Below are positions 1-20,647 of a stretch of 20,647 nucleotides of DNA, in pieces. Source of the DNA: a virus. The notes beneath the pieces were generated by a model. It did not search any database. It saw only the letters and a list, made by a program, of their open reading frames with translations, and was not told where the DNA came from. The first letter of the stretch is position 1, and each line of letters opens with the position of its first letter. The stretch covers positions 1 through 20,647 of IMG/VR virus record IMGVR_UViG_3300009103_000187, one strand, 5' to 3'. The position numbers and the translations under genes were made by a program.

Positions 1-119
1 AACCAATGAGCACACACGACGATTTGTGGGAAAAACAGGCACCGAGCCGGGTACAAAAACCCGAAGCGGTCGCTGAGAAAGCCCCAGCAAAAAAGAAAGC
101 TCCGGCGAAGAAGCCAGCA
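1..119. repeat. Terminal direct repeat, left copy (contig circularity)
   Basis: These 119 bases are identical to the last 119 bases of the window. Both copies lie in the same small gene, and the flanking gene order (capsid, then head-tail adaptor) makes sense only if the ends are joined. The repeat is therefore most simply the overlap left by a de Bruijn graph assembler closing a circle; 119 is a k-mer size in common assembler series. It marks a circular or circularly permuted genome, or one whose cohesive ends had joined. It is not by itself evidence for biological direct terminal repeats. Confidence 0.95.
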
Positions 120-1149: not shown

Positions 1150-1307
1150 GCGACTACAAAATAAAGTCTGAAAGAGTGACGTTTGGCAAGATAGGCGAAA
1201 CAGTCACAGAAAAAGACCTCGAAAAGCTGGGTGTCAACATTGACGCTTTAGTAGAGGGCGGTCACTTGGCCGCTAGCCGGGCCACAACCAAGAAGGATGG
1301 TGAATGA
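1146..1307 (+). CDS. Small conserved-looking protein upstream of tail tube
   Basis: A 53-aa ORF linked by ATGA overlap to the gene before it and by a 4-base overlap to the tail tube gene after it. The protein is charged and soluble (starts MSDYKIKSERVTFGKIGE, then DLEKLGVNIDALVEGGHL). Short proteins of this type, with a G-x-T-V-x-x-x-D-L segment and an EGGHL segment, are familiar to me just upstream of tail tube genes in actinophages, but their function is unknown to me. Both overlaps favour it being translated. Confidence 0.75.
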   Translation: MSDYKIKSERVTFGKIGETVTEKDLEKLGVNIDALVEGGHLAASRATTKKDGE

Positions 1308-1714
1308 TGGCCGCTTTCATGTTAAATAATGCTTCAGTCACAGTGAATTCCGTCGACTTGAGCGATCATGTCACGTCGGTGACTTTCACCGAGGAAGCAG
1401 ACCAACTCGAAACAACCGCTATGGGCGACGACAATCGGACAATGATTGGGGGGCTCAAATCGGGAACCATCGACCTTGAATTTAATCAGGATCTAGCGGC
1501 GTCCGATGTGCAGGCCACAATCCGGTCGCTACTGGGAACCGTCACCACGCTGGTTGTTAAAAATATTGCGAGTGCAGCAGCGGCAACGAACCCCCAGTGG
1601 ACGTTCAGCGCTCTCGTAACCGAGTGGCCGTCGATCAACGGAACTGTGGGCGAACTTGCTACAGCTTCGGTGTCGTGGCCCATAACCGGCGCAGTAGTAG
1701 AAGCCACAAGCTAA
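1304..1714 (+). CDS. Major tail protein (tail tube)
   Basis: A 136-aa, beta-rich, short-form tail tube subunit. It has the usual pattern of an N-terminal strand pair (VTVNSVDLSDHVTSVTF), a central segment with GLKSGTIDLEF, and a C-terminal ASVSWPITG strand that resembles tube proteins of small actinophages. AAGGA at 1293-1297 lies 6 bases from the ATG at 1304; a second ATG at 1307 would also work and would remove one Met. Position directly upstream of the frameshifted chaperones and the tape measure supports the call. Polymerised hexameric rings of this protein would form the tube. Confidence 0.85.
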   Translation: MMAAFMLNNASVTVNSVDLSDHVTSVTFTEEADQLETTAMGDDNRTMIGGLKSGTIDLEFNQDLAASDVQATIRSLLGTVTTLVVKNIASAAAATNPQWTFSALVTEWPSINGTVGELATASVSWPITGAVVEATS

Positions 1715-1723: not shown

Positions 1724-1729
1724 AAAATG

Positions 1730-2014
1730 ATGCTGAGGGCACAAATCCAAGTAACAGACAATCAGGGCGTTGTCCGAAAATATGACGGCACCGGGGCGCT
1801 ATTCGTAGCGTTTGAAGCACATTTCGATGTTTCGATATTGGAAATGGGCGAAAACCCGCGTTTAACCCATATTTACTGGCTCGGGTACGAGGCGGCTCGC
1901 CGTGTATCCCAGCACGACGGTTTGAGCTTCCAACAGTGGCTCGACGCCGGTTATACGGTGGAATTCGAGGCCGACGAAGCCCCTTTAGCCGAAGAAGCTA
2001 CGCCTACCAGTTAG
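1730..2014 (+). CDS. Tail assembly chaperone, short form (gpG-like)
   Basis: A 94-aa acidic protein located after the tail tube gene and upstream of the tape measure, where siphophages encode the chaperone that holds the tape measure during tail assembly. It has a beta-like N-terminus (MLRAQIQVTDNQGVVRKY), a helical middle (LTHIYWLGYEAARRVS) and an acidic C-terminus. Its last codons contain the slippery heptamer CCCTTTA in correct phase, so a fraction of ribosomes should enter the -1 frame and make a longer protein. The upstream ATG at 1727 is less likely on ribosome-site spacing. Confidence 0.8.
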   Translation: MLRAQIQVTDNQGVVRKYDGTGALFVAFEAHFDVSILEMGENPRLTHIYWLGYEAARRVSQHDGLSFQQWLDAGYTVEFEADEAPLAEEATPTS

Positions 2015-2169
2015 GGGTGTTAGCTCTCAACACCGGACAACCATTGGATGTTTTGTTAAACGCCGATTCTTTAACTCTGATGGGGCTATTAACCGCATGG
2101 AATGAGAAAGTGAAAGCCGAAGAAAAAGCAGCGAGGGCGGCAAGGCGTGGCAAAACGAAATACCGTTAA
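1730..2169 (+). CDS. Tail assembly chaperone, frameshifted long form (gpGT-like)
   Basis: Predicted -1 frameshift product of about 146 aa: 86 codons of the short chaperone up to the TTA at 1985-1987, then 60 codons read from 1987 in the -1 frame to the TAA at 2167-2169. The added part includes a hydrophobic helical stretch (YQLGVLALNTGQPLDVLL) and a strongly basic, Ala-rich tail (EEKAARAARRGKTKYR). In lambda the T domain recruits the tail tube protein; a similar job is inferred. The -1 frame has no convincing start of its own with a ribosome site, which supports production by frameshifting. The last 23 bases overlap the next gene. Confidence 0.75.
1981..1987 (+). other. Programmed -1 ribosomal frameshift heptamer CCCTTTA
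   Basis: The zero-frame codons here are GCC CCT TTA, so the heptamer reads C CCT TTA, the canonical X XXY YYZ arrangement. After a one-base slip both tRNAs can re-pair as CCC and TTT. The -1 frame is then open from here to 2169, while the zero frame stops at 2014. Location and direction match the G/GT frameshift known from lambda and many siphophages. Confidence 0.8.
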
Positions 2170-2662
2170 TTTTCAACAAGTCCGGGGCCAGCGTGGACAT
2201 TTCGGCGCGCAAGTCCAAATTAAAGGGCTACGGCAAGCTCAACGCCTCATGGGCAGACTTGACGAAGATTTCAAGAAACGGTTTAAGGAAATCCACAAGG
2301 GCGCCGCCGACATTGTGGCCGACGAAGCCCGAAAAAGAGTGCCGGTTGGCCGTACTCAACGCAAAAGCCGCAGTTACCGCACCTACACGACGGGCGCCCT
2401 AAAAAAGTCAATCAGGACCAGCGGCACCGCTAAGGGCGGCATAATCAGGGTAGGGAAAAAGAAAATACCTTATGCCGGGCGTATCCATTTCGGCGACATA
2501 GGGGGACAACGTGACCGGCTGGGCCGCCGCATGGACATACAGCCCAATCCGTTTATATACCAATCCGCTGACATCAAGTTTCGGCAAGTCGTGAACTACT
2601 ATAACGACGAGCTAGAAGAAATTTTGGACGACGCAATAGAGGTTTCGCAGCGTGGCCGGTAA
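2147..2662 (+). CDS. HK97 gp10-like tail completion / neck protein
   Basis: A 171-aa basic protein with features of the HK97-gp10 family (PF04883): an N-terminal helix (KGLRQAQRLMGRLDEDFKKR), a segment ARKRVPVGRT, then TGALKKSIRT, a short strand-turn with IPYAGRIHFG, and the proline-containing PNPFIYQSAD. Members take part in joining tails to heads. The start is a GTG at 2147, inside the end of the chaperone frame (23-base overlap), with only a weak AAGG before it. Its placement between the chaperones and the tape measure is unusual; this family is normally found before the tail tube gene. Confidence 0.75.
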   Translation: MAKRNTVNFQQVRGQRGHFGAQVQIKGLRQAQRLMGRLDEDFKKRFKEIHKGAADIVADEARKRVPVGRTQRKSRSYRTYTTGALKKSIRTSGTAKGGIIRVGKKKIPYAGRIHFGDIGGQRDRLGRRMDIQPNPFIYQSADIKFRQVVNYYNDELEEILDDAIEVSQRGR

Positions 2663-4487
2663 AACAGCAACAATCAGTATGCTGATCGGCGGCGACGCCT
2701 CCGGTTTACGCAAAGCCACCAAGAACGCCACCAAATCGCTCGACAAGTTCTCGAAATCGTCAGCTAACGCAGCCAAAAAAGTTGGGGCAGCGTTCGGCAA
2801 AATGACCGCCGGTATAACGGTCGCCGCCGTGGGACTCGGAGCGAAAGCCGTTGACCTTGCGAGCGACTTTGATGAGTCGATGTCGAAAACGAAGGCCATA
2901 TTTCGGGACGGTGCTGACTCGATTATTGCGTCGTCGAAAGAAGCCGCGACCGCTGTTGGTCTTTCCCGGGGCGAATTTATGGAAGCCGCGTCGAGTTTCG
3001 GTGTTTTCGGTACCGCCGCCGGTCTGTCCGGCGACGAGTTGGCGACGTTCTCCGCTGATCTGGTACGCACCTCAGCCGATATAGCGAGCTTCAACAACCT
3101 CAGACCCGAGGAAGCTCTGGCAAAGCTACGAGCCGGGCTATCCGGGGAAACCGAACCATTAAAGCAGTTGGGAATTCTGTTTAACGCCGCCGCCGTGGAC
3201 GCAAAAGCGCTCGAAATGGGATTAGCGGACGTCAACGGCGAAATTTCCGAAGGTTCTAAAATCATGGCCCGAAACGCTCTGATTATGGAGCAACTAGGCG
3301 CGCAGGGTGCCCTCGGGGATTTTGAGAAAACGTCCGGTGGGCTGGCTAACCAGCAACGCATTCTAAAAGCCCGGCTAAAGGACGTAGGCATCACTATCGG
3401 CACCGCGTTGCTGCCTATCGCGGGAAAACTAGCTGAGGGCATCACAAAACTGATCGAGGTGGCCGAGCGTTTCGCGCCTCAAATGGCGACTATTCGGGAC
3501 CGCGCAAAAGAACTCGGTGAACAGTGGATGCCGAAACTCAAAGCGGCGTTCGACAAAGTACGAGAAGCAGTGGAGCCGATAATTCGCAAAATCGTTGATT
3601 TCATCAGGACGAACCCTAAGCCGTTCATTATTGGTTTGGCTGCCGCCATAGGCGTGGTGCTTGTGGGAGCGATAGGGGCCGCTGTGGTCGCTCTCGGAGG
3701 CATCATTTTCAGTGTTGGTGGACTGATTGCATTATTTGGGGCCGCGGTTGCGGCTATCGCCTATTTCTGGCAGGAATCCGAAACCTTTAGATACGTGGTC
3801 ACTAGGGTTTTCGAGGACGTAAAAGCCGTGGTGACCCCGATTATTAAGGGAATCATCGAAATGATCGGGGGGATAATCCAATCGTTCCAAGGCGTCCTCG
3901 ATTTCCTGAAAGGCATATTTAGCGGCGATTTTGATCTGGCGTTATCCGGTATCAAAGACATGGTTTGGGGGCTGGCTCGAACGATTCTCGCACCGTTGGA
4001 AGCCATAAAAACGGCGTTTACCACATTCTTTAGCCTTGATTCGGTTAAAACCGGTATCGGGCTCGCCATCGACGGCATCATAGATTTCGTGCGCGCTATA
4101 CCCGACCGGGTAGGCAAGCTCGCTAAAGGAGCGTTCGATTCACTACTGGACGCCTTCACGGGTGTGCTCAACAAGATCATACGGGCGTGGAACAGTATCG
4201 ACTTTGGTTTCAACATCGACATACCGGGCTGGGTGCCCGGTTTCGGAGGTAAGAGTTTCGGGATAGACGACCTCATACCCGATATCCCGACTATTGGGGG
4301 AGCGTCGCCGATGGCACCGTCAGCGATGCTCCCGTCAACAGCGTTACGCGAAGCAGCGACAGCGCCCACCGTAATAAATAATTACAACGTGACCGCCCCC
4401 AACGTCGATCCTGAGGGGCTGATCGGTGGGCTCCGTCGTTACAACCGTTCCAGTGGCCCAGCGCCCGTTGATATCGGGTTTTACTGA
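2652..4487 (+). CDS. Tape measure protein
   Basis: A 611-aa protein, the largest in the genome, whose length should set tail length (roughly 90 nm if the usual 0.15 nm per residue holds). Residues 70-270 match the conserved tape-measure core pattern, with helical segments such as FDESMSKTKAIFRDGADS and GEFMEAASSFGVFGTAAG. A hydrophobic Gly/Ala-rich region at about 323-372 is the membrane-active stretch common in these proteins. A second mostly helical part follows, and the C-terminus holds an Asn-rich INNYNVTAPN segment. Start is GTG at 2652, overlapping the gene before by 11 bases; its stop overlaps the next start (TGATG). Confidence 0.92.
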   Translation: MAGKTATISMLIGGDASGLRKATKNATKSLDKFSKSSANAAKKVGAAFGKMTAGITVAAVGLGAKAVDLASDFDESMSKTKAIFRDGADSIIASSKEAATAVGLSRGEFMEAASSFGVFGTAAGLSGDELATFSADLVRTSADIASFNNLRPEEALAKLRAGLSGETEPLKQLGILFNAAAVDAKALEMGLADVNGEISEGSKIMARNALIMEQLGAQGALGDFEKTSGGLANQQRILKARLKDVGITIGTALLPIAGKLAEGITKLIEVAERFAPQMATIRDRAKELGEQWMPKLKAAFDKVREAVEPIIRKIVDFIRTNPKPFIIGLAAAIGVVLVGAIGAAVVALGGIIFSVGGLIALFGAAVAAIAYFWQESETFRYVVTRVFEDVKAVVTPIIKGIIEMIGGIIQSFQGVLDFLKGIFSGDFDLALSGIKDMVWGLARTILAPLEAIKTAFTTFFSLDSVKTGIGLAIDGIIDFVRAIPDRVGKLAKGAFDSLLDAFTGVLNKIIRAWNSIDFGFNIDIPGWVPGFGGKSFGIDDLIPDIPTIGGASPMAPSAMLPSTALREAATAPTVINNYNVTAPNVDPEGLIGGLRRYNRSSGPAPVDIGFY

Positions 4488-5717: not shown

Positions 5718-6506
5718 ATGGCAGGTGCAGGCTACAAACAATGGACAACCGGAGCGGTACTCACGTCTACGGATATGAACACGTACGTGGGCGATCAGGT
5801 TTTGATGGTATTTGACGACTCATCGGCCAGAAGCAGCGCCGTGTCCAGCCCTACGGAGGGCATGGTTTCCTACCTGAAAGACACAAACGCCATCGAATAC
5901 TACGACGGGTCAAGCTGGGGCGGCATAGGCGACATCACCGCCGTAAACGCCGGAACAAACATAGATGTGACCAGCGGCACAGGGCCGACGCCGACCGTAG
6001 CGCTCGCCATTGACGCCGCCGTAGCGATAGGAGCCGACGGTTCCGGCGTAGACGTAACTTTCCACTCGGGAACCGCCGGCGATTTCGCGCTGTGGGACGC
6101 CTCGGATAAGGCGCTTGAATTCACGGATTCCAAAATCACGATGAACGATAATCTCATCGAAACCGCGGAAATGAAGGACTATGCGGAAACGGTCAACGCC
6201 ATTGGCTCGACCGGCGGGGGGACACAGGACATCGACCTAACAGCCGGGAACGTGGTAACGGCAACAGTGGACACGAGCGCGAATACGTTTACGTTTAGCA
6301 ATCCGTCCGCTAGCGGTAAATCGTGCAGCTTTACCCTGATTTTAACTAACGGCGGTTCACAAACGGTCAACTGGCCCGGTTCGGTCGATTGGGCAGGCGG
6401 CAGCGCTCCCACGCTCACGACATCTGGTGTGGATGTTTTGGCGTTTACGACTGTTGACGGCGGCACGATCTGGTATGGGTTCCCTGCTGGGTTGGCGATG
6501 GCCTGA
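5718..6506 (+). CDS. Tail fibre / minor tail protein
   Basis: A 262-aa fibre-like protein. Its N-terminal 65 residues (GYKQWTTGAVLTSTDMNTYV, then SPTEGMVSYLKDTNAIEYY and DGSSW) follow a pattern I know from actinophage minor tail proteins. The middle is a Gly/Thr/Asp-rich beta region, including FALWDASDKALEF, a common phage-fibre repeat motif. The C-terminal 100 residues (from about DIDLTAGNVVTATVD) form another beta domain ending IWYGFPAGLAMA. AGGA at 5707-5710 is well placed for the ATG at 5718. It probably attaches to the hub and carries or supports receptor-binding modules. Confidence 0.7.
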   Translation: MAGAGYKQWTTGAVLTSTDMNTYVGDQVLMVFDDSSARSSAVSSPTEGMVSYLKDTNAIEYYDGSSWGGIGDITAVNAGTNIDVTSGTGPTPTVALAIDAAVAIGADGSGVDVTFHSGTAGDFALWDASDKALEFTDSKITMNDNLIETAEMKDYAETVNAIGSTGGGTQDIDLTAGNVVTATVDTSANTFTFSNPSASGKSCSFTLILTNGGSQTVNWPGSVDWAGGSAPTLTTSGVDVLAFTTVDGGTIWYGFPAGLAMA

Positions 6507-7138
6507 TGCCACTCGGGAGCTTCAAGACGGCGCTTTTGGGTGCTGCTGGCGCTGGTGCTGGCGAGGAGGGGATTGAGTTGATTAGTACGACGACGGTCAG
6601 TTCAGCTACTCAGTCGATCACACTGACGAGCATCCCTCAGGATTATCGCGATCTGAAGATGGTGGTTCGAGCGGCTTCCTTAAACCTCGTCGAAGACTCG
6701 ACTTGGATTCAACTCAACGGCGACTCGACGAACACCAACTACCGCCTCTACTACTACGGAGCCGCAGGTAATAGCAGTTCCAGCGGAACCTATGAAGCGA
6801 CTCACTACTCTTACAACTCGAACCAGATGCCTCGCGGAAACTGGCCGTGGGGATCAAGCAGTCGGGGCAGCCTGAACGAACGACAGGCGGCTGAGTTTCA
6901 TATTCCGAACTACACGGCAGTAGGGGCAACTTCAGGAACTGGTGTCTATTGCTACGCCAGCGGTGTCAACAACATCGGCACCCCTCAAAACAATCAGTGG
7001 TTCCAGTGGTCGGGTCAGTCATGGACCGGCACGACAGCGGTCACCTCGATCGTCGTCTATCAAAACGGATCTGGGTCGCTGTACGAAATTCAGCCCAATA
7101 CTCAGGTCAGTCTTTACGGAATAGGGACGGCACCATAA
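6506..7138 (+). CDS. Putative receptor-binding tail protein, paralogue 1
   Basis: A 210-aa Ser/Thr/Asn/Tyr-rich beta protein, first of three tandem relatives. After a Gly/Ala-rich start (ALLGAAGAGAGEEG) come the shared segments: TTTVSSATQSITLTSIPQ leading to DYRDL, then FHIPNY near the middle, and LYGIGTAP at the end. Aromatic- and Asn-rich surfaces of this kind are typical of phage adhesins that bind host glycans. Its start overlaps the previous stop (TGATG) and its stop overlaps the next start (TAATG), so the three relatives are made together. Role in host recognition is inferred from context. Confidence 0.7.
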   Translation: MPLGSFKTALLGAAGAGAGEEGIELISTTTVSSATQSITLTSIPQDYRDLKMVVRAASLNLVEDSTWIQLNGDSTNTNYRLYYYGAAGNSSSSGTYEATHYSYNSNQMPRGNWPWGSSSRGSLNERQAAEFHIPNYTAVGATSGTGVYCYASGVNNIGTPQNNQWFQWSGQSWTGTTAVTSIVVYQNGSGSLYEIQPNTQVSLYGIGTAP

Positions 7139-7722
7139 TGCCAGATTACGAAATTATTGCTGAGGGTTCTGTTGATGGTTCGGCACCAACGCTCATCACC
7201 CTTGACTCTATTCCGGGCACTTACCAGCATTTGGAATTGGTAATCAACGGAGCTTCGACCCGTGACAGCAGTTCGTATCACGACTTCTTTACGATGTATT
7301 TCAACAACAGCACCACGGCCAATACTTATATGCGGTCTGTGAATTATCAGGCTGACGCATCCACAACAATCAGTGGGGTTGCCACGCAAGGCTACGGTCC
7401 CTCCGGCGCTCAAAACCAAATGGGCTACTGGTATCTGCCGACAAGATGGTCAGGCCAATCGACTCAGTTGATGGCCTACAATCGTTTCTACATTCCGAAC
7501 TATGCCGGAACGACGCTCACTAAAGCGATGCTGGGCTGGAACATGCTCGCTGGAGCTTATGACTGGCCCGGATCCAGTGGCTCGAACAGCGGTGTTGGTG
7601 TGCAGTCAGGTGTTTGGGGTTGGAACGATACGTCAGCGATCACACGAATTGACCTCAAAACTTATGAGACAGGTTTTGGCTGGGCTGTCAACACTTCCTA
7701 CATTTTGGCAGGGGTAGCGTAA
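7138..7722 (+). CDS. Putative receptor-binding tail protein, paralogue 2
   Basis: A 194-aa relative of its two neighbours. The start is the ATG in the TAATG overlap at 7136-7140; the open frame extends further upstream but without a convincing start. Shared features are an EIIAEGSV N-terminus, LITLDSIPGTYQHL in the position of the others' SI-Q-Y-DL motif, FYIPNY in the middle, ITRIDL near the end, and a C-terminal YILAGVA where the other two have LYGI. It is rich in Trp, Tyr, Gly and Ser. The divergence from its neighbours is large, as expected for adhesins under selection by host variation. Confidence 0.7.
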   Translation: MPDYEIIAEGSVDGSAPTLITLDSIPGTYQHLELVINGASTRDSSSYHDFFTMYFNNSTTANTYMRSVNYQADASTTISGVATQGYGPSGAQNQMGYWYLPTRWSGQSTQLMAYNRFYIPNYAGTTLTKAMLGWNMLAGAYDWPGSSGSNSGVGVQSGVWGWNDTSAITRIDLKTYETGFGWAVNTSYILAGVA

Positions 7723-8264
7723 TGCCTACATGGAATCATCTCGCCACGACCACAGTGTCTGGTTCGTCAACGTCGTCAATCAGTTTCACTTCGATCAGTC
7801 AAAGCTATAAGGACTTGGCGTTGTTCGGGATGTTGAAAGACGACGGCACAAGCTCCGGCGGTCAAAGCGGTTTGCTCATCTATTTCAAGGATTCGGGTGG
7901 TAACTCGATGGATATGGCTGGGGGTCTAATTGCTCAGAGCTGGGGCAGCGTCGTCTACTCCTACCAATATCCGAGCAGGAACGACATCCCGAGCTACATG
8001 CCAAACAACACGACGAGTTATACAGGGGTCGGTCCGCAGTACGCCTATATTTATGACTACTCGTCAACGACGGTTGCTAAGAACGTGCTGTGGATGAATG
8101 GCATTACTGGTCAAGACGCTCAAAACAACAACAACACTTGGCAGGCTTGGCGTATGTGCGTCAACGATTCGGGGAACGACGCAATCAGCGAAGTCACTAT
8201 CAACAGTCAGTCATATAATTATGTACCGGGAGCGATGATGTCCCTGTACGGAATCACGGCATAG
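7722..8264 (+). CDS. Putative receptor-binding tail protein, paralogue 3
   Basis: A 180-aa third member of the tandem set. The N-terminus TTTVSGSSTSSISFTSISQ followed by YKDL is clearly related to paralogue 1, and the C-terminus SLYGITA matches its end; the middle is highly diverged (YMPNNTTSYTGVG in place of the IPNY motif). Start overlaps the previous stop (TAATG at 7720-7724). Its stop codon lies within the AGGAGG ribosome site of the next gene. Likely part of a variable fibre-tip cassette. Confidence 0.7.
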   Translation: MPTWNHLATTTVSGSSTSSISFTSISQSYKDLALFGMLKDDGTSSGGQSGLLIYFKDSGGNSMDMAGGLIAQSWGSVVYSYQYPSRNDIPSYMPNNTTSYTGVGPQYAYIYDYSSTTVAKNVLWMNGITGQDAQNNNNTWQAWRMCVNDSGNDAISEVTINSQSYNYVPGAMMSLYGITA

Positions 8265-12065: not shown

Positions 12066-12204
12066 CGAACTCGAACTGTCCCCGGGCGAACAGGCCATTA
12101 CCAAAGAAGAACGACAGAAGGCGTTTGCTGAGGACGACGCGAAACGCTGTGAATGCCACCAACTGCTGCCCGACTTGTGTCCTACGAAGTGGATGGACAA
12201 ATGA
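12055..12204 (+). CDS. Small Cys-rich protein upstream of methyltransferase
   Basis: A 49-aa charged protein starting within the end of the nuclease gene and ending in an ATGA overlap with the methyltransferase start. It has a possible metal site near the C-terminus: Cys32, Cys34, His35 and Cys42 (CECHQLLPDLC). No family recognised. Its position and coupling to the next gene support expression; function unknown. Confidence 0.7.
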   Translation: MSSNELELSPGEQAITKEERQKAFAEDDAKRCECHQLLPDLCPTKWMDK

Positions 12205-13013
12205 AAATACTTAGCTTATGCAGCGGTTACGGCGGTTTGGATATCGCCGTAGAACAGCACTTCGCAGCGAAAACCGCGTACTGGTCCGACATTGACAAAA
12301 CCGCCTGTGACGTTATGACAGCCCGTTTCCCTGATGCCCAACCGATAGGGGATTTAACGACACTCGATTTAACAATGATTCACGCCGACGTTGTGACCGC
12401 TGGTTATCCCTGTCAGCCGTTTAGCACCGCAGGCAACCGATTAGGAGAAAAAGATGAAAGACACCTTTGGCCCTATATCCGACACACCATTAGCGTTCTA
12501 CGACCCCGATTCGTTGTGTTGGAGAATGTCGCAGGACACCTTTCAATGGGAGCCGCCGCCGTCGTTGGAGATCTTGCCGCCCTCGGGTATGACGCACAAT
12601 GGACAGTTATACGAGCGTCCGACGTCGGAGCCCCACACCAGCGAAAACGACTTTTCATTGTTGCCGACGCCGACGGTGGAACAGGGGAGAAGTTTGACCT
12701 CGGGGATGGCGACAGGGGACGGCCGCAAACCCGGCTCGACCGGAAAGCTCGGACTAACTTTAAACGACCTAGCCTTCCTTCAGAATTTGAAAGATACAGG
12801 AAAGCCGTCACCGGGTGGCAAGAAACCACCGGCAGACGTGCGCCTGTTCCCGTCAAGGGCAGCCGGATAACTGCTGAATGGGTCGAGTGGATGATGGGGC
12901 TAGAAAAGGGCTGGGTTTGCGATATCGCCCCCAGCAAAACTCAAGCTCTCAGACTGCTCGGGAACGGTGTTGTGCCGCAACAAGCTAAACGAGCGTTGGA
13001 GCTTCTTACATGA
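12201..13013 (+). CDS. dcm: C5-cytosine DNA methyltransferase
   Basis: A 270-aa protein with the motifs of C5-cytosine methyltransferases (PF00145) in order: motif I SLCSGYGGLDIAVE (5-18) for S-adenosylmethionine, motif IV GYPCQPFSTAG with catalytic Cys71, motif VI LENV (Glu108), motif VIII PHQRKRLFIVA (145-155), and motif IX-X LLGNGVVPQQAKRALELL at the end. The target-recognition part (about 160-230) is short and of low complexity. The start is fixed by the ATGA overlap, although the frame is open upstream to 12153. It probably methylates phage DNA against host restriction, or mimics a host pattern; target sequence unknown. No cognate restriction enzyme is seen. The gene contains a complete overlapping ORF (12454-12870). 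The symbol is a family label, not an orthology claim. Confidence 0.93.
   Translation: MKILSLCSGYGGLDIAVEQHFAAKTAYWSDIDKTACDVMTARFPDAQPIGDLTTLDLTMIHADVVTAGYPCQPFSTAGNRLGEKDERHLWPYIRHTISVLRPRFVVLENVAGHLSMGAAAVVGDLAALGYDAQWTVIRASDVGAPHQRKRLFIVADADGGTGEKFDLGDGDRGRPQTRLDRKARTNFKRPSLPSEFERYRKAVTGWQETTGRRAPVPVKGSRITAEWVEWMMGLEKGWVCDIAPSKTQALRLLGNGVVPQQAKRALELLT
12443..12448 (+). promoter_or_regulatory. Shine-Dalgarno of the ORF nested in the methyltransferase
   Basis: AGGAGA with 5-base spacing to the ATG at 12454. It is one of the best ribosome sites in the window, although it lies inside the codons for the conserved RLGEK segment of the methyltransferase, so it may exist by chance of that protein sequence. 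Confidence 0.55.
12454..12870 (+). CDS. Overprinted ORF inside the methyltransferase gene (+1 frame)
   Basis: A 138-codon ORF lying wholly within the methyltransferase gene (its residues 85-223) in the +1 frame. It has an ATG with AGGAGA 5 bases upstream. The product is Pro/Ser/Thr-rich and probably disordered: SDTPLAFYDPDSLCWRMSQ, PPSGMTHNGQLYERPTSE, then FSLLPTPTVEQGR. I recall very similar strings (SLCW, SGMTR-G-LYELPTSEP, LLPTPT) from annotated phage proteins, which suggests the frame is retained widely, but part of this may arise simply because it is the alternate reading of conserved methyltransferase motifs; for example LLPTPT lies on the codons for FIVADA. It ends before the C-terminal methyltransferase motifs. 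Real product or passive frame cannot be decided from one sequence. Confidence 0.45.
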   Translation: MKDTFGPISDTPLAFYDPDSLCWRMSQDTFQWEPPPSLEILPPSGMTHNGQLYERPTSEPHTSENDFSLLPTPTVEQGRSLTSGMATGDGRKPGSTGKLGLTLNDLAFLQNLKDTGKPSPGGKKPPADVRLFPSRAAG

Positions 13014-13612: not shown

Positions 13613-13946
13613 AACCGTGGATTACCACCCCCCGGTTACAACGACCACGGCCCCGATTTCCACTGTGGAGTTTGATATTCGGGAAATCATCTGCTCGAAA
13701 CCGTGGCCGTGTCAAGAAGCGATACAGGTGGCGAAATGTGAAAGCGAGCTAAAAGCCGGCGCAATATCCAAACCAAACCGGAACGGCACACGAGACTGGG
13801 GGCTGATGCAGATCAACGACGGAGCGTGGGGCAGACGAGTGTTCGGGGATCGCTGGGACCGGGTGCTGGATCCGCAGACAAATGTGGACATGGCTTGGCA
13901 CATCTATCAGCTATATGGCTGGCAGCCGTGGACGTGTCGGCCATGA
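13374..13946 (+). CDS. Secreted lytic transglycosylase-like protein
   Basis: A 190-aa exported protein. Residues 1-30 form a clear signal peptide: basic MNSKQRKK, hydrophobic ILLTITLLVVWI, then TTAPSTTVAT. A Thr/Pro/Arg-rich linker (about 31-97) precedes an SLT/Rpf-like domain: EAIQVAKCESELKAGAI with catalytic Glu123, GTRDWGLMQINDGAWG, and DPQTNVDMAWHIYQLYGW. Four Cys (107, 113, 122, 188) could form disulfides outside the cell. It would cleave peptidoglycan glycan strands from the outer side. It is placed away from the endolysin-holin cassette. The first 239 bases overlap the winged-helix gene in another frame; AGGGA lies 9 bases upstream of the ATG. The classic signal peptide makes this start convincing. 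Confidence 0.85.
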   Translation: MNSKQRKKILLTITLLVVWITTAPSTTVATPENRSNETPVVSLKREPLYPTATTETMRKVPHFPTTTSTPTTRRPRRIPRTVDYHPPVTTTTAPISTVEFDIREIICSKPWPCQEAIQVAKCESELKAGAISKPNRNGTRDWGLMQINDGAWGRRVFGDRWDRVLDPQTNVDMAWHIYQLYGWQPWTCRP

Positions 13947-14824
13947 GAATCATTAGCTACGGCGGCGGCGTGCAATCAACAGCGATGGTCATAATGGCCG
14001 CAACTCGTAACCCCGAATTCGAGACAGCTTGCGGAGGACCGATAGACGCCGCGCTGTTCAGCAACGTGGGCGACGACTCGGAACACCCGGCGACCCTCGA
14101 TTACGTGCGAAACGTGATCCAACCGTGGGCGGCTCAACACGACTTCCCGGTAGAGATACTGGAAAAGGTACGCAGGGACGGACGCAAAGAAACACTATTG
14201 CAGCACTTGTCGCGCCCTGAAAACCGCTCGGTTCCTATCCCGGTACGCATGTCTAACGGTGCACCCGGTCGCCGTAGCTGTACCGTCGATTACAAAATCA
14301 AAGTGATCCACAAATGGCTGAAAGCGAACGGCGCCAGTAAAGACAACGTGGCAACCGTCGCAATAGGCATAAGCACGGACGAATTTCAGCGGATAGGCAG
14401 AGCCGACGACGCCCCGTTCGAGAGGAGAATTTACCCGTTGATCACGTTGGGTATGGCCCGGAGCGATTGTTACAACGTGCCAGCACAACACGACCTACCG
14501 GCACCCGGCAAATCATCATGCTACTTCTGCCCGTTTCACCGGCCTTCCACGTGGGCAGAAATGCGACGCGACGAACCGGAACTGTTTTGGAAATCAGTTG
14601 AGTTAGAACGCAAAATTAACGAAATCCGCGACGCCTCACTAGCGGTAAGAAAGCAAGAGGCAGAAGCGGCTGGCGAACGATGGAACGGGCCAGAAAGTCC
14701 TAACGTGTGGCTCACTCGATTTAACAAACCGCTCGACGAAGCGATAAGCGAAGCACAAACACAGCTACCGGGATTCGAGAGCATCGAAGAAAGCGGTTGC
14801 GATTCGGGACACTGTTTCACATGA
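13943..14824 (+). CDS. PAPS reductase-like ATP pyrophosphatase (N-type)
   Basis: A 293-aa protein starting MRIISYGGGVQSTAMV, a PP-loop (SYGGGVQS, residues 5-12) typical of the adenine nucleotide alpha-hydrolase / PAPS reductase superfamily, which adenylates a substrate while releasing pyrophosphate. Further features are RSCTVDYKIKVIHKW (Cys113), CYNVPAQHDLP (Cys176), CYFCPFHRPSTW (Cys193, Cys196) and a terminal CDSGHC (286-291), so a zinc or iron-sulfur site is likely. Proteins of this family are common in actinophages; DndC and some tRNA-thiolation enzymes belong to the same superfamily, but true sulfate reduction is unlikely here. Substrate unknown. Coupled by ATGA to its neighbours on both sides; the open frame upstream of 13943 is not used. 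Confidence 0.85.
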   Translation: MRIISYGGGVQSTAMVIMAATRNPEFETACGGPIDAALFSNVGDDSEHPATLDYVRNVIQPWAAQHDFPVEILEKVRRDGRKETLLQHLSRPENRSVPIPVRMSNGAPGRRSCTVDYKIKVIHKWLKANGASKDNVATVAIGISTDEFQRIGRADDAPFERRIYPLITLGMARSDCYNVPAQHDLPAPGKSSCYFCPFHRPSTWAEMRRDEPELFWKSVELERKINEIRDASLAVRKQEAEAAGERWNGPESPNVWLTRFNKPLDEAISEAQTQLPGFESIEESGCDSGHCFT

Positions 14825-20528: not shown

Positions 20529-20647
20529 AACCAATGAGCACACACGACGATTTGTGGGAAAAACAGGCACCGAGCCGGGTACAAAAACCCGAAGCGGTCG
20601 CTGAGAAAGCCCCAGCAAAAAAGAAAGCTCCGGCGAAGAAGCCAGCA
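20529..20647. repeat. Terminal direct repeat, right copy
   Basis: Exact copy of bases 1-119. Removing one copy gives a circle of 20,528 bp. The copy begins inside the ribosome binding site of the 41-aa gene (AAGGA at 20525-20529), so the break point falls in the middle of a translation signal. That fits an arbitrary assembly break rather than a natural genome end. Confidence 0.95.
20534..20647 (+). CDS. Right-hand partial copy of the Lys/Ala-tailed gene
   Basis: First 38 codons of the 41-aa gene at 6-131, cut by the contig end; identical because it lies in the 119-base terminal repeat. This copy shows the native upstream region: AAGGA at 20525-20529, 4 bases before the ATG, and a 76-base gap after the capsid gene. 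In the circular genome there is only one such gene. Confidence 0.9.
   Translation, partial: MSTHDDLWEKQAPSRVQKPEAVAEKAPAKKKAPAKKPA

Follow-up and report, generated by a model that had tools for sequence, protein, structure and literature searches.

We consider it highly likely that the two overlapping reading frames described here, G and T, form a tail assembly chaperone gene of the phage lambda G/GT type, in which T is reached by a -1 frameshift; slippage and the chaperone role are what we infer. Directly established are the slip signal, the fact that it is conserved, and the coding of both frames; -1 ribosomal frameshifting at the heptamer CCCTTTA is, to judge from the aligned sequences, very probable. 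An earlier note on this DNA had proposed that a frameshift here makes a G/GT-type chaperone pair; the frameshift signal and the two-frame coding stand, whereas the backing for the chaperone role is position and layout. The window, by which we mean the whole stretch of DNA analysed, is the whole IMG/VR record IMGVR_UViG_3300009103_000187 (20,647 bases), and the features of the locus and its tail-gene neighbourhood are as follows.

724-1149: tail terminator, upstream of G
1304-1714, plus strand: major tail (tube) protein (PHROG 4574, E 4e-26)
1727-2014, plus strand: G, the zero-frame open reading frame, 95 amino acids (ORF call; alignment of 21; AlphaFold2)
1967-1970, plus strand: GAGG, a putative stimulator resembling a Shine-Dalgarno sequence, 10 nt upstream of the heptamer (sequence conservation)
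1981-1987, plus strand: slippery heptamer C CCT TTA, the putative -1 frameshift site (phase, and invariance among relatives)
1987-2169, plus strand: T, the -1 frame extension, 60 codons and a stop (alignment of 19; codon-position diversity; AlphaFold2)
2147-2662, plus strand: HK97-gp10-like or tail completion protein (PHROG 5, Pfam PF04883)
2652-4487, plus strand: tape measure protein, 611 amino acids (PHROG 991, E 1e-37)

Read in the frame of the open reading frame at 1727-2014, positions 1979-1987 are GCC CCT TTA, which is the phase needed for tandem -1 slippage, exactly as the earlier note had it. The -1 frame is then open for the 60 codons previously reported (1987-2166), ending in TAA at 2167-2169. 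T overlaps the end of G in the -1 frame, as a G/GT-type pair would lead one to expect, and its stop codon lies 20 nt past the start of the HK97-gp10-like gene (offset -20). The locus had also been placed between tail tube and tape measure; this is correct as to position, but the tape measure gene is not adjacent, the HK97-gp10-like gene standing between.

Relatives were found by protein searches with G and T, so that the heptamer itself was not used as a query. Successive searches gave 26, then nine, then one, or 36 other IMG/VR contigs, and with the window these make a family of 37 records, one of which (3300008740_000288, L002) is almost identical to the window. CCCTTTA is present in phase in 36 of the 37, the exception (L067) having CCCTTTG, and the zero-frame stop lies 31 nt downstream of the heptamer start in 34 of the 36 CCCTTTA records and 40 nt downstream in the other two (L063 and L064). 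For comparison over 280 nt we used 27 distinct sequences from 35 records (L006, a contig that ends inside T, was omitted), and all seven bases of the heptamer are invariant across the 27. Within the window the bare word CCCTTTA is not rare, with 3 matches against 1.7 expected, and in-phase words of the form X_XXY_YYZ occur 9 times at the 2392 codon positions of the ten listed open reading frames. A single copy of the heptamer therefore proves nothing by itself, and we accept the signal because of its conservation among relatives. Aligning those relatives around the heptamer favours frameshifting, in that the slip site is invariant, the -1 frame is conserved and, as detailed below, some members have no standard start in that frame. 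None of the 37 family records shows the contrary pattern, namely loss of the heptamer with each frame retained as a gene of its own behind its own ribosome site.

CCCTTTA is a workable slip motif, as measured in E. coli: C_CC.U_UU.A and C_CC.U_UU.G are among 18 underrepresented heptamers that gave more than 0.10% frameshifting without stimulators (PMC4066793). In the same study, the efficient UUU motifs are those ending in a pyrimidine (PMC4066793); the present heptamer does not end in one, so the site may be weak. It is also plausible, on the E. coli motif list, that CCCTTTA is a less common slip site, as had been remarked earlier. Among the papers listed in literature searches for this heptamer, none was recognised as reporting a phage tail gene with this site, and we make no claim of absence from print; in a paper on SPP1, the word sits in a terminator.

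The sequence just upstream of the site contains a candidate stimulator. GAG is invariant in all 27 distinct sequences, its last base 12 nt before the heptamer, and GAGG is present in 26. Upstream of the site G has 86 wobble positions, of which 6 are invariant among these sequences: two in Trp codons, one in the start region, two near the gene start, and that of GAG. Over the 234 nt leading up to the site, the GAG(G) stretch holds the only invariant wobble position that is not trivial. GAG makes up 36% of Glu codons in the ten window open reading frames. The member with CCCTTTG (L067) has GGGAG 12 nt upstream of its slip site, and EBPR siphovirus 6, a named phage considered below, has GAGGG 9 nt upstream. 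Stimulatory Shine-Dalgarno sequences were searched for 6-17 nt upstream in the E. coli work (PMC4066793). On this pattern of conservation, GAGG is a candidate frameshift stimulator of the Shine-Dalgarno type.

Downstream RNA structure at the slip site is not supported. The window stretch folds no better than shuffled sequences (z -0.27), and RNAalifold returned 7 pairs, none with a two-sided change. We also compared local folding between +12 and +48 with synonymous draws for 26 of 29 sequences (L002, L004 and L008 were omitted): z was about -1.2 to -2.3 in the window and the relatives closest to it, L024-L027, L067 and L099 (EBPR siphovirus 6), and between -0.7 and +1 in L003, L005, L007, L056, L059, L061, L062, L063, L065 and L096.

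Both frames are under selection. Among the 27 sequences, mean diversity at codon positions 1, 2 and 3 of frame 0 upstream of the site is 0.219, 0.157 and 0.475, and past the zero-frame stop the corresponding values for frame -1 are 0.179, 0.059 and 0.493, a pattern that indicates selection on frame 0 before the site and on frame -1 after it. One possibility is that the heptamer is incidental and T simply a separate small gene, translated from a ribosome site of its own within G (start GTG at 1936 or at 2017). We therefore surveyed start codons in 29 sequences, namely the 27 distinct ones, L067 and EBPR siphovirus 6. The window and 10 others do have a -1 frame start codon ahead of the heptamer, as a separate gene would allow, but another 11 have their sole -1 frame starts at +36 to +45, within conserved T, where the residues SYAYQLG that precede these starts are themselves conserved in the T alignment. 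The remaining 7 carry no ATG, GTG or TTG in the -1 frame from its upstream stop to +60, so that in them T has no standard start codon of its own, and this is a strong argument for frameshifting. Nor would an incidental heptamer be expected to remain invariant when CCT accounts for just 16% of Pro codons and TTA for 13% of Leu codons in the ten window open reading frames. Independent initiation at standard starts cannot, on these sequences, be the family's common route to T, and we regard a separate T gene as highly improbable. Slippage of RNA polymerase rather than of the ribosome is hardly credible: single-base runs can cause transcriptional slippage, and a group of related phages discussed below does have a run of seven A residues, but CCCTTTA has no extended run of one base, and the phase of the frames is preserved in just the way that tandem tRNA slippage requires.

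Ribosomal frameshifting being the preferred explanation for T, what can be said of the proteins themselves? AlphaFold2 predicts G, overall with good confidence, as beta-beta-alpha with a low-confidence C-terminus (pLDDT 82.9, two of the five models being poor) and T as three helices with a basic tail (pLDDT 87.0). The added segment had been described as a hydrophobic helix with a basic Ala/Arg tail; its helical character and basic tail are upheld, but three helices are predicted, not one. Searches of G and T against PHROGs and Pfam, with T scanned as single proteins only, matched no named chaperone family, and sequence and fold searches of G against solved structures in the PDB gave nothing convincing. 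In BFVD the G model had twelve matches with E below 0.001, eleven of them to phage proteins of uncharacterised function and one to a protein that is unnamed in the tables; fold matches to proteins named tail assembly chaperone, from two BFVD searches, are weak (rank 29, E 0.23; rank 20, E 0.82). The annotated chaperone of Microbacterium phage Eden showed no similarity to the family profiles. Against phage records, G matched Pontimonas phage phiPsal1 only and T, by tblastn, matched nothing; used as queries in turn, G of EBPR siphovirus 6 found no match and G of L067 found only itself. One scan of a genome collection for host or prophage relatives found none.

Since no annotated chaperone family is matched by sequence, we infer the chaperone role from position and architecture. 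Alternatively, the -1 frame might be conserved and translated by frameshifting without its product being a tail chaperone; some other small tail protein could be encoded here instead. This would agree with the absence of named chaperones among the sequence and solved-structure matches, and with the HK97-gp10-like gene that separates the locus from the tape measure gene. However, the position after the tail tube gene, the size, the -1 layout and the helical T are all as expected of G/GT; moreover, phiPsal1 likewise has a single gene separating the pair from its tape measure, and the slip layout recurs in EBPR siphovirus 6. We judge a non-chaperone product very improbable.

Comparison with known systems supports a lambda-type reading while marking its differences. 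Like lambda gpG/gpGT, the window has two overlapping open reading frames, T in the -1 frame, a slip site near the end of G and a tail-gene neighbourhood. The lambda slip site is GGGAAAG, in contrast to CCCTTTA here, and in the window the HK97-gp10-like gene separates GT from the tape measure and the pair has no detectable sequence similarity to any named family. The frameshift mechanism and chaperone function of lambda gpG/gpGT are described in PMC5009743. In phiPsal1, gene 016 encodes a homologous G (phiPsal1_016, probability 97%) and is followed by an unannotated, T-like -1 frame; the tape measure comes after a single further gene. Unlike that of the window, the slip site of phiPsal1 is A_AAA_AAA and sits right at the zero-frame stop, and the similarity of T is weak by profile. 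We examined phiPsal1 with five IMG/VR relatives, one of them 99% identical: these phages lack CCCTTTA and instead all 6 have A_AAA_AAA with a T-like -1 frame at the matching place. No consistent Shine-Dalgarno-like stretch was found upstream of A_AAA_AAA in these 6 sequences.

In EBPR siphovirus 6, gp13 carries an in-phase CCCTTTG with the stop 31 nt further on, the GAGGG already mentioned and a T-like -1 frame, but its A-site codon ends in G and the similarity of protein G is weak. There gp13 is annotated as hypothetical only and T is unannotated, and the annotated GTG start of gp13 (L099 1481-1738) probably truncates G, according to the family alignment. As T is unannotated in both named phages examined that have this layout and a related G or T, phiPsal1 and EBPR siphovirus 6, gene callers can evidently miss it. 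The same heptamer, CCCUUUA, is the gag-pol frameshift site of Giardiavirus, although that is a eukaryotic dsRNA virus and its proteins are unrelated. In the Rhodococcus phages Shagrat and REQ1 (L097 4002-4696 and L098 4050-4744) the region is annotated as two separate genes; a -1 frame stays open past the zero-frame stop of the first of these, within which no in-phase X_XXY_YYZ heptamer was found. Judging from the nearest named phages, the host may be actinobacterial.

Under the proposed mechanism, most ribosomes would stay in frame 0 and stop at 2014, yielding G (95 amino acids). In a minority, the Pro-tRNA paired with CCT and the Leu-tRNA paired with TTA would slip by -1 onto CCC and TTT, probably aided by pausing on the upstream GAGG, and these ribosomes would continue to 2169, yielding GT, that is, G up to the slip site joined to the T helices. 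If the pair works as its lambda counterpart does, the role of the G part would be to coat the tape measure and that of the T part to bring in tail tube subunits, and neither would be present in the virion. We further suggest, with slightly less belief than doubt, that a lineage, likely of actinobacterial phages, has C_CCU_UUR as its natural tail-chaperone slip site, with slippage driven from an internal GAGG of Shine-Dalgarno type and not from a downstream RNA structure, while sisters with a homologous G use A_AAA_AAA, so that one type of slip site would have been replaced by another and the fused proteins kept. The pair is an unannotated addition to the already known G/GT frameshift genes. 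It brings to them a conserved family, and provides a natural bacterial-virus test case, complete with a candidate Shine-Dalgarno stimulator, for a heptamer whose slippage was assayed as part of a synthetic panel in E. coli.

An exact 119-base direct repeat lies at the ends of the window (1-119 and 20529-20647), and on this account the record appears to represent a complete genome of about 20.5 kb, circularly permuted and small for a siphovirus. The terminase, portal and major head genes are at its right end and the connector genes at its left. Three consecutive genes (6506-7138, 7138-7722 and 7722-8264) have a similar protein layout and length and look by eye like tandem paralogues; two of the three were scanned in PHROGs, with no match. 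The genome also carries a DNA methyltransferase (12153-13013; PHROG 363, E 3e-65) and, at 13826-14824, a match to phage phosphoadenosine phosphosulfate reductase (PHROG 424); this is an auxiliary metabolic gene, carried here by a very small genome.
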